DNA from: Haloferax denitrificans ATCC 35960 | Lineage (GTDB): Archaea > Halobacteriota > Halobacteria > Halobacteriales > Haloferacaceae | Assembly (NCBI RefSeq): GCF_000337795.1 | Contig: NZ_AOLP01000018.1 | Coordinates: forward strand, 62,001 to 126,000 | Length of the DNA stretch: 64,000 nucleotides | Reading direction: 5' to 3' | Part shown: in pieces, positions 52,651-55,520 of the stretch | How positions within the stretch are numbered: the first letter of the stretch is position 1 | Layout of the letters: each line of letters begins with the position of its first letter | Position numbers and translations under genes: made by a program | The notes under the pieces: generated by a model | Told to the model about the DNA's origin: nothing | The model's database searches: none | What the model saw: only the letters and a program-made list of their open reading frames with translations

Positions 52651-53706
52651 TCAGCGGAGCGAGTAGATGTTCGATTCGTACGTTTCGCGCACTCTGTCGC
52701 CCCAGTTGTGGGTGTACGTGTCGATGATATCGCCGGCAACGTCGCCGCGGAGGTACTTGACGATACCGCGGTCGCCGGTGCGGTCCCGGAGGTGGGTCGT
52801 AAAGAAGTGCCTGAAGTAGTGCGGCGTGACGTTCTCCTCGCGGTCGCCGCCCGCCCGGTACCAGCCGGCGTCGGCGGCGTGAGCGGTGACGACGTGGTGG
52901 ACGGCGTCGGGGTCCAGTCGCTGACCCCACCCCGAGGCGGTACCGAGGAAAAGTGGTTCGGCCGGAGACGGCGAATCCGGCCGAACCGCCAGCCAGCGAA
53001 GCAGAACGTCCTCCAGTTCGTCGTCGACGGGGACGACCGTCGACCGCTTCCGCTTGTTGGAGGCGGTTCGCTCCTCGCCGTTGGTGACGCTCCCGACGCT
53101 CGGGTCGGCGGCGACGTATATCGACGGTCCGCGGCCGTCGAGGGCGGCGCGGGTCGATACACCGCTTACGGGTGTATCCGCCTCCGCCGCCAGCGACACG
53201 TCTCGAAGGTCGAGGTTGCACAGTTCGCCGACGCGCATCCCGGTCTTGAGGAGGGTGACCACCAGCGCGTGGTCCAGCGGATGGGCGATTTCGCGGACGA
53301 ACCCCCGCATCTGCGGGACCGAGAGCTCCCGTCGGGCGGGGTTGGTGTCGATGCGCTCGTCCATCTCCTCCATCACGAGGCTCATCGGGTTGGAGTCGAA
53401 CGCGCCGACCTGCGCCATGTAGGCGTAAAACCGGTGGAGGTAGGAGGCGTACGTTGCCACCGTGCTCGGCGCGACATCCCGGTTTCGCAGGGTGTGTATC
53501 CACGCCATGCAGTCGCGGTGGGTCGCGTCGTCGACCGACCGAGCGCTCCCGGAGGGGTTCCGCGAGGGGTCGCCGAGGAACGACTCGAACGCCCGGAGGA
53601 CGCGCTCGTAGGCGGCGCGGGTCCGGTCGGTCTTCCCGTGATAGGTCATATCCTGTAGGAAGTAGCCAACCGGGTCCTCCGCGTCGGCGGGTCGCTCAGC
53701 GGCCAT
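52651..53706 (-). CDS. Tyrosine recombinase/integrase (Xer-like)
   Basis: 351 residues. A SAM-like core-binding domain (15-115, DRTRAAYERVLRAFESFLGD, APSTVATYASYLHRFYAYM) precedes the catalytic domain. The active-site set is R158 (TGMRVGEL), H296 and R299 (PHYFRHFF) and nucleophile Y331 (DTYTHN). At the usual second-His position (LGH) it reads RGD (D322), a deviation. An insertion rich in Gly and Thr (178-220) makes it longer than XerA (about 290). It overlaps the upstream DNA-binding gene by 11 bp; a dif-like site lies about 480 bp upstream. Confidence 0.9.
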   Translation of the reverse strand: MAAERPADAEDPVGYFLQDMTYHGKTDRTRAAYERVLRAFESFLGDPSRNPSGSARSVDDATHRDCMAWIHTLRNRDVAPSTVATYASYLHRFYAYMAQVGAFDSNPMSLVMEEMDERIDTNPARRELSVPQMRGFVREIAHPLDHALVVTLLKTGMRVGELCNLDLRDVSLAAEADTPVSGVSTRAALDGRGPSIYVAADPSVGSVTNGEERTASNKRKRSTVVPVDDELEDVLLRWLAVRPDSPSPAEPLFLGTASGWGQRLDPDAVHHVVTAHAADAGWYRAGGDREENVTPHYFRHFFTTHLRDRTGDRGIVKYLRGDVAGDIIDTYTHNWGDRVRETYESNIYSLR

Positions 53707-54142
53707 CGCGCTCCGCGAGGGTGTAGCCGCCGTGTCGCCCGCTGTACACGACTCGACCGCTCGACTGCAGTTCCTGAAGCGTCGATTCGAGGCGGTCTTC
53801 GATGTCGTCGGTCAGCGCCGCGACGAGGTCGTCCCACGACCGGTGGGAATCGGCCGCGAGCGCCTCGATAATCCGGGCCTCGAACTCACCGTTATTTTCG
53901 CTCCCACCGTCCTGATCTGAACCGTCGTTCTGGAGCCCCGTTTCCACCCCTTCAACCCCGGGGGTTGTAGCCGCTTCATCGCCCCTCGACGGAACGTCGA
54001 AATCGCGCCGGCCGGCCTGTACCATGGTTCTGACAAATTCGCTCTGGCTCATCCCGAGTCGGTCCGCGTGGTCCTTCCAGATGGCCTTCTGGTGGGCCGG
54101 GAGATAGGTTTGCACCGTCGCGCGGTCGACCTCATCGCTCAT
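53696..54142 (-). CDS. RHH-like plus wHTH DNA-binding protein (DUF5805-like), recombinase partner
   Basis: 148 residues from the ATG at 54142. Residues 1-45 (DRATVQTYLPAHQKAIWKDHADRLGMSQSEFVRTMVQAGRR in the gene) have the strand-helix-helix look of a ribbon-helix-helix/CopG protein. An acidic linker (50-85) leads to a C-terminal winged helix (EARIIEALAADSHRSWDDLVAALTDDIEDRLESTLQELQSSGRVVYS...). It precedes and overlaps the recombinase gene, so it may be an accessory factor or repressor acting on the repeats just upstream. DUF5805 is the name I recall. Confidence 0.75.
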   Translation of the reverse strand: MSDEVDRATVQTYLPAHQKAIWKDHADRLGMSQSEFVRTMVQAGRRDFDVPSRGDEAATTPGVEGVETGLQNDGSDQDGGSENNGEFEARIIEALAADSHRSWDDLVAALTDDIEDRLESTLQELQSSGRVVYSGRHGGYTLAERDGR

Positions 54143-54184
54143 GAACGGGTCGACACGGGGGTCGATATTCAATCTACCGGCACA

Positions 54185-54212
54185 GTTCAGAATAAGAGAA
54201 GTTATCCTGAGC
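54185..54212. other. dif-like recombination core site
   Basis: Two 11-bp arms in inverted orientation, GTTCAGAATAA (54185-54195) and TTATCCTGAGC (54202-54212), match at 9 of 11 positions and flank the 6-bp spacer GAGAAG (54196-54201). The inner ends ATAA and TTAT next to a 6-bp spacer are the hallmark of Xer dif sites (bacterial and archaeal). It lies 43 bp upstream of the start of the recombinase operon. Confidence 0.65.
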
Positions 54213-54300
54213 AGTGCATGCGGATTTTCGGCGGCGAAATGCGCTTATCCTGAATACTGCAATCGTATTTTCGGCAGTTTACATGCACTATTCCGGATAA
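54202..54300. repeat. Additional arm-like repeats (direct and inverted)
   Basis: The right arm of the core site and the next 20 bases recur at 54245-54275 in the same orientation (about 25 of 31 positions, both ending ATTTTCGGC). TTATCCTGAATACTGCA (54245-54261) is also an inverted match (15 of 17) of TGCACTATTCCGGATAA (54284-54300). These look like extra binding half-sites for the recombinase or its partner; spacing of copies in direct orientation is 43 bp. Confidence 0.65.
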
Positions 54301-55520
54301 TAAATTCTCCCGGAGAACGCCGATTTCGGGCGTTTCGAGCGAATCTGAGAACCGGCCGATGTTCTGTTGCTTCTAGTAGGTCGAATTTCGCACAGCACCG
54401 TCTCTTTTCTGTGATAATACTCGATTTTTGGATGGCTATTCTCTCGCCATTTACCCCCGGAGTAGCGCTTGGAAGAACCACTTACACGGGTTTCGTTATT
54501 TCACACCAGATTTTACTGAACTATTATACAATCTGGATAGCGGTGGTTCTGTCTCTGTTTTATTACATCTACTGTAGATTGAATTATTCCGAACATATTT
54601 TCTTCATATTCTCTCAGAAATATACCCGTGGGACGACGCGTCATCCGTGTTCTCTCGAACGAGTATATTTAATCAAATTCAACTCGGAATTTTAACCGAT
54701 TATATCTGCTATCTTCCTGTGAATCTATGTCGTCGGTCGGGGCTTCGTTTCGAAGCGACTCTATCTGTTATTATGTGGGGTGTCGTCGCGAAGAACTCCG
54801 GCGAGTGTTGTCTGATTCGAACACGCGACCGCTCGGGTGACGCCGTTTCGAACCCACTCGAAGACGAACCCAACCGAGGTCCTTGCCGGCTCGATTCGGT
54901 CTCTTTTGACGCCTTCACAGCCCTCGTCTTCGCGGTGAGCACAGTAACTCGGAGCATGGGCCCATCTCAGGTGAAGCGGCGCTCAAGCGCGTTGTGGCCG
55001 TCCTGACGGGGTCGCGTGAATCCGAGGTTTCGGCTCTCGCTAACGGCCGGATTCGACGACTCACTCGTCCGGCGGCGACGACCCGTTCGAGCGAACCATC
55101 TCTCGGCTGGTGACTCGGTCGAGCGGACCATCCCGAATCTCGAATGCGACGCCGCACTCGTCTGCACAACCGGAGTCGTGGCCGTGCCCCCGCAACCGCC
55201 CGTACTTCCGACTGCGATACGAACCACCCGAGACGCGAGCGCGACGTGGCTGTCGTTTGCGGCGTTGACGGCTCGACACTATCGACTCTTTGAACTCCGA
55301 TTTTCCGCGTTAGCTCGACTCAATCGCTGATTCTCCGAGCGTTTCGGTCTCTGTCGGCTTGCCCGACTGTCCGATTCGAGACTCGTATATCGCATCTCGC
55401 TATACACAATCCCGGTTCTCGGGTTCGACCGAGTTCGGAAAATTCGAGGTCCCGTCGAACCCGGCCGGTTCGCGTCGAAGTCGTCGGGAGGGCCGGATGC
55501 CGACGACCTCACCCGGCGCG
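54301..55520. other. Long non-coding stretch, AT-rich left half
   Basis: About 1.2 kb without a convincing gene. 54400-54730 is distinctly AT-rich with runs such as TTTTATTACATC and ATATTTAATC. 54760-55480 returns to moderate GC, but short frames in it have neither typical codon bias nor recognisable protein patterns. A motif copy (55394-55404) lies near the right end. It may be decayed coding DNA or a functional site region. Confidence 0.6.
55394..55410 (+). repeat. Dispersed motif copy 2 (ATCTCGCTATA)
   Basis: ATCTCGCTATACACAAT. It differs by one base from copy 3 (62782-62798) over 17 bases and is an inverted match of copy 1. Copies 1 and 2 bracket the recombinase block. Confidence 0.6.

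Follow-up and report, generated by a model that had tools for sequence, protein, structure and literature searches.

The locus considered here raises the question of whether haloarchaea have a dedicated site for the resolution of chromosome dimers. In bacteria, the resolution step of Xer recombination is controlled by FtsK, of which archaea have no known homologue (PMC2958812). Haloarchaea are not mentioned in the main text of Cortez et al. 2010 (PMC2958812). According to a review of Haloferax volcanii, this species has 12 XerC/D-like genes, no dif site has been identified in it, and the part these genes play in termination is still to be established (PMC7776575). No description of a haloarchaeal dif site, or of the DUF5805 family that forms part of the operon described below, was found in the literature searched, with subscription journals mostly outside its scope.

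The candidate dif-like core occupies positions 54185-54212 (minus strand) of the window, that is, of the whole 64-kb stretch of Haloferax denitrificans DNA that was analysed. It reads GTTCAGAATAA-GAGAAG-TTATCCTGAGC and is 28 bp long, with the layout 11-6-11. The inverted arms (54185-54195 and 54202-54212) match in 9 of 11 positions and end in ATAA and TTAT on the two sides of the 6-bp spacer (54196-54201), exactly as the sequence-only reading had described them. The window has a single match to the pattern ATAA-N6-TTAT, and 0 of 100 dinucleotide shuffles contain one. With up to three mismatches allowed, the 28-mer has no further copy in the genome of 3.83 Mb, and looser patterns yielded no second equally good core in this genome. 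The core begins 42 bp upstream of the ATG of the DUF5805 gene at 54142; thus the upstream position given earlier stands, and the distance of 43 bp does not. Between them lies a putative BRE/TATA promoter element (54164-54183, minus strand, GTGCCGGTAGATTGAATATC) that is conserved in alignments and directly abuts the core; its position ~27 bp before the ATG suggests that it is the promoter of the operon. Conserved non-coding islands were observed in 15 Haloferax species 225-320 bp upstream of the core (54437-54530 of the window). The upstream intergenic region has no match to an Rfam family.

Both genes of the operon lie on the minus strand and are those recognized earlier: the DUF5805 protein (PF19121; 53696-54142), with predicted RHH and winged-helix parts, and a Xer-type tyrosine recombinase of 351 aa with SAM-like and catalytic domains (52651-53706), whose gene shares 11 bp with the end of the DUF5805 gene. 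All 15 of the 15 Haloferax genomes encode the recombinase, with 86-100% identity. Residues R158, K218, H296, R299 and Y331 are invariant in 37 orthologs, and so is D322, an Asp at the catalytic H/W position; this is the RGD that had been noticed in place of the usual LGH. Thus the catalytic set R-K-H-R-[H/W]-Y of archaeal XerA is broken at D322. The protein scores 109 bits against the NCBIfam XerA equivalog NF040815, with the cut-off at 220 bits, and because of this score and the Asp it is not classed as XerA. It may act like XerA, yet it falls outside the equivalog. By sequence, the closest solved structures include XerA and XerD. The structural model of the recombinase is fairly confident (pLDDT 86) and has archaeal Xer structures among its top fold matches, with global TM-scores that are low, perhaps due to domain orientation. 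A phage-like recombinase was considered and rejected, as the best phage matches are partial, with ~29-38% identity. Haloarchaea carry many other integrases besides this one.

The model of the DUF5805 protein is weak (pLDDT 67). Its N-terminal part is RHH-like and its C-terminal part resembles a winged helix; a local structural match to CopG has a non-significant E-value. From this model, DUF5805 looks like a DNA-binding protein. The earlier suggestion of a distinct Xer-type system with an RHH-like partner fits both this low-confidence model and the score below the XerA cut-off.

The layout of the locus resembles the archaeal XerA/dif systems of Pyrococcus abyssi, Thermoplasma and Sulfolobales (Cortez et al. 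2010, PMC2958812), which also have a 28-bp site with 11-bp arms, a 6-bp spacer and ATAA/TTAT ends, a single recombinase and no FtsK; in Sulfolobales, dif is also located near xerA (PMC2958812). The haloarchaeal recombinase differs from XerA in being longer, in its score and in the Asp at the His/Trp position, and the haloarchaeal module adds the DUF5805 partner and a pair of accessory half-sites whose positions are fixed. Other systems in which one recombinase serves a dif site are XerS/difSL of streptococci and lactococci and XerH/difH of Helicobacter and Campylobacter. As in the haloarchaeal module, the XerS gene directly adjoins its site; however, difSL is a 31-bp site with an 11-bp central region instead of the 6-bp spacer, and its recombination needs FtsK (PMC5357621).

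The operon is strongly conserved. DUF5805 scores above the cut-off in 132 of 146 genomes of Halobacteriales, is accompanied by the recombinase in 125 of the 125 loci of this order examined, and the operon is mostly single-copy. In the 230 bp upstream of the conserved DUF5805 start, ATAA-N6-TTA is found in 111 of 125 loci (99 of them with TTAT), the Markov expectation being 2.3% per locus; the count becomes 172 of 189 once lineage variants and more loci are included, and neither these counts nor those for location are independent, since the genomes share ancestry. Several of the loci lacking ATAA-N6-TTA have CTAA-N6-TTAT (Halobellus) or, apparently, AATT-N6-TTAG (Halobaculum); disruption by an insertion was rejected as the cause, as these are lineage variants. 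Haloprofundus (L234) and two related Haloferacaceae (L082, L098) carry TCTTAG-N4-CTAAGA at the position of the core and have possibly switched the site type. In the alignment of 15 Haloferax species, the core is retained, and parts of the spacer and arms are variable. At the symmetric arm positions 1-5, complementary bases are more frequent than in shuffled data (z 2.2-4.3, inflated by relatedness), and the spacer is not palindromic across loci. Such arm covariation together with a non-palindromic spacer is what would be expected of a directional tyrosine-recombinase site.

One could argue that the inverted repeat and the half-sites are a mere operator array, through which DUF5805 or the recombinase would control the promoter of its own gene, with no recombination taking place. 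Indeed, the conserved promoter element directly follows the core on its downstream side, with near-constant spacing across the aligned loci, and DUF5805 resembles a DNA-binding protein. However, an operator would not be expected to have the exact dif geometry with a non-palindromic 6-bp spacer, to be located opposite oriC1, or to be split at the spacer by an insertion in a related genome (see below). We regard this explanation as unlikely, and operator and recombination functions may coexist at the site.

The location of the operon was measured in 27 complete or near-complete chromosomes relative to Orc1-1, the orthology of which was checked by protein search. The median distance is 0.453 of the circle, and in 25 of the 27 chromosomes the operon is at 0.40-0.50 of the circle from Orc1-1/oriC1 (nominal P 8e-16, overstated since the genomes share ancestry). 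The control genes are at 0.04 (radA), 0.05 (pheS) and 0.29 (radB-like), with about twice the scatter. Thus the dif-like site appears to lie in the replication terminus region, opposite oriC1, where the sequence-only reading had proposed to look for it; the terminus position is inferred from Orc1-1, and further active origins are possible. The gene adjoining Orc1-1 in the genome of the window reads, by eye, like a signal peptidase.

The expectation of one copy per replicon is borne out for the chromosome, which has a single copy, and fails for the secondary contigs of Haloferax, which generally have none. In Halomarina PSR21, whose megaplasmid is the only one examined, both the chromosome and the 1.16-Mb plasmid have their own operon and site; the chromosomal site is ATAA-GGCTCA-TTAT, and that of the plasmid, ATTA-GGGCAC-TTAT, is a variant. 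No second site of comparable quality was seen in the Haloferax genomes with the exception of G014. There, contig C6 (L155:5385-5418) contains a second perfect core, CAGAATAAGTGAGTTTATCCTG, with a different spacer and away from the operon, perhaps the site of a plasmid or a mobile element.

Attachment sites commonly adjoin integrase genes. The recombinase might have been domesticated from the integrase of an ancient integrative element, with the site a relic attachment site that has no role in chromosome resolution; the other integrases of haloarchaea and the divergent operon copies elsewhere in some genomes would agree with such an origin. However, the near-universal and mostly single-copy conservation within the order and the constant location opposite oriC1 fit a housekeeping function, and there is no second attachment site in the genome of H. 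denitrificans itself. This origin seems very improbable.

The divergent copies are DUF5805-recombinase operons found in addition to the main one in some genomes (L247-L251), in one case on a second contig (contig C2 of G121). By eye, their upstream site may be of a different type, TTA(T/G)-N4-CTAA. Three other loci (L157, L158, L159) contain, besides the intact operon, a degenerate second copy of the DUF5805-recombinase pair; the two operons point away from each other on either side of the dif site. A DUF5805 gene lacking an adjacent recombinase is located on the 149-kb plasmid of Halobaculum halophilum (L242:5956-6342). In several genomes, the dif locus is adjoined by a gene for a fusion protein that combines an HNH nuclease with a Xer-like catalytic domain (L146:18916-19794, L149:512-1390, L159:7189-8025, L157:11565-12425), and remnants of such fusions were found in L102, L078 and L066. 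The Xer-like domain of the fusion lacks the residues aligned to R158, H296 and Y331, and thus is catalytically dead. The fusion or its remnant is located beside the dif/DUF5805/recombinase locus in seven of the nine genomes having either. A possible role is that of a homing or guard nuclease directed to dif.

A natural event bearing on the function of the site was found in genome G093, where a 1.6-kb insert, absent from the sister genome G021, splits the site at the 6-bp spacer. The left junction is GATAA-ACTCAC-TATGATCAAATTATAGG and the right junction is AACATTG-ACTCAC-TTAGCTCGAATAATAGG, the intact site of G021 being GATAA-ACTCAC-TTAGCTCGGATAATAGG. The duplicated segment is exactly the 6-bp spacer. 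The arm contributed by the insert matches the right dif arm of the host in 14 of 20 positions, a level reached by 0.03% of windows of the insert. The insert has no clear gene or ORF, and a search of plasmids, phages and 148 other genomes yielded no relatives of it. Clean insertion junctions were not obtained for G123, G028 and G102.

If an ordinary transposon that duplicates 6 bp of its target had landed on the spacer by chance, the signature would be identical and would be uninformative on recombination, and the insert is known from a single genome and has no clear ORF. However, the duplication coincides exactly with the spacer, the ends of the insert do not form an inverted-repeat pair (by eye), and one of them is the host-like arm mentioned above; a chance landing is thus quite unlikely. 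We prefer to read the junctions as marking the spacer as the crossover point, this being a single case. Mobile elements that exploit the host Xer/dif system are known as IMEX. The G093 event fits the integration of a comparable element with a dif-like half, as here too a dif-like site was interrupted at its spacer, the spacer was duplicated and a dif-like arm was brought in. It differs from IMEX in the archaeal host, in the lack of recognisable genes and in being a single case.

The sequence-only reading had left the choice between chromosome dimer resolution and the recombination site of an integrative element. The former is favoured, as the site is single-copy, is conserved together with the recombinase throughout the order, lies opposite oriC1, and has its spacer interrupted in G093. 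Judging from these genomic patterns, it is likely that the locus is a haloarchaeal module for chromosome dimer resolution, consisting of one Xer-type recombinase and the adjacent dif-like site.

How such a module could do without FtsK is suggested by the region upstream of the core, where the core arms of each locus were scored along its own upstream DNA. Two peaks were found at fixed offsets. At peak B (z 7.2 among offsets), the half-site carries its ATAA 43 bp upstream of that in the core; at peak A (z 5.7 with the right arm), an inverted TTAT is located 95 bp upstream. At the threshold of at least 8 of 12 matches, half-sites occur in 44 of 162 loci (B) and 29 of 162 loci (A), compared with a mean of 1.1 loci at other offsets and maxima of 8 (against B) and 7 (against A); many loci have no clear accessory half-sites at this threshold. 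In the window, half-site B is at 54245-54256 (TTATCCTGAATA on the plus strand), in the orientation of the near arm and 43 bp away from it, and half-site A is at 54289-54300 (TTATCCGGAATA on the minus strand), inverted relative to B and 95 bp from the core. Both had been overlooked in the earlier reading. In Halobellus and Haloquadratum, the core arms are altered and the accessory half-sites are altered likewise, which suggests that one protein reads both.

An analogous arrangement is seen in the internal resolution site of Tn4430, where the TnpI recombinase acts on a core with nearby arm-like accessory motifs, and selectivity is achieved without other proteins. The haloarchaeal accessory motifs also resemble the core arms and have fixed spacing. 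However, the spacing and orientation are different, and TnpI is borne by a transposon, whereas the haloarchaeal module is a core feature of the chromosome with a partner gene. The fixed offsets suggest an FtsK-independent, self-contained resolution complex. More specifically, we tentatively propose, with slightly less than even confidence, that the recombinase, DUF5805 and a compound site of ~120-130 bp form a complex that imposes directionality in the absence of an FtsK-like motor.

The proposed mechanism is as follows. Two protomers of the recombinase, which we infer to be the partner of the adjacent site, would bind the inverted arms, recognizing the outer bases and ATAA/TTAT. Strand exchange across the asymmetric 6-bp spacer would then resolve directly repeated sites of a dimer to monomers. 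The accessory half-sites lie ~4 and ~9 helical turns upstream. Either the recombinase or DUF5805 probably binds them, and they would build a topologically selective synapse in place of FtsK. Protein binding at the core probably also autoregulates the operon, since the site abuts its promoter.

Several facts count against dimer resolution. The recombinase is below the XerA cut-off and has Asp at the catalytic H/W position, and the insertion is a single case. Haloferax is polyploid, and therefore dimers may be tolerated. Four XerC/D-like genes of H. volcanii, which may or may not include this gene, can be deleted with viability kept (PMC7776575).

The analysis points to a single gene pair and an exactly defined site in an archaeon amenable to genetics, and thus the question of dimer resolution becomes directly testable. 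The site also provides a terminus landmark for haloarchaeal genomes. The accessory half-sites and the dedicated partner are a concrete candidate answer to how Xer recombination may be controlled without FtsK and, if true, the compound-site complex would explain this control in archaea lacking FtsK.
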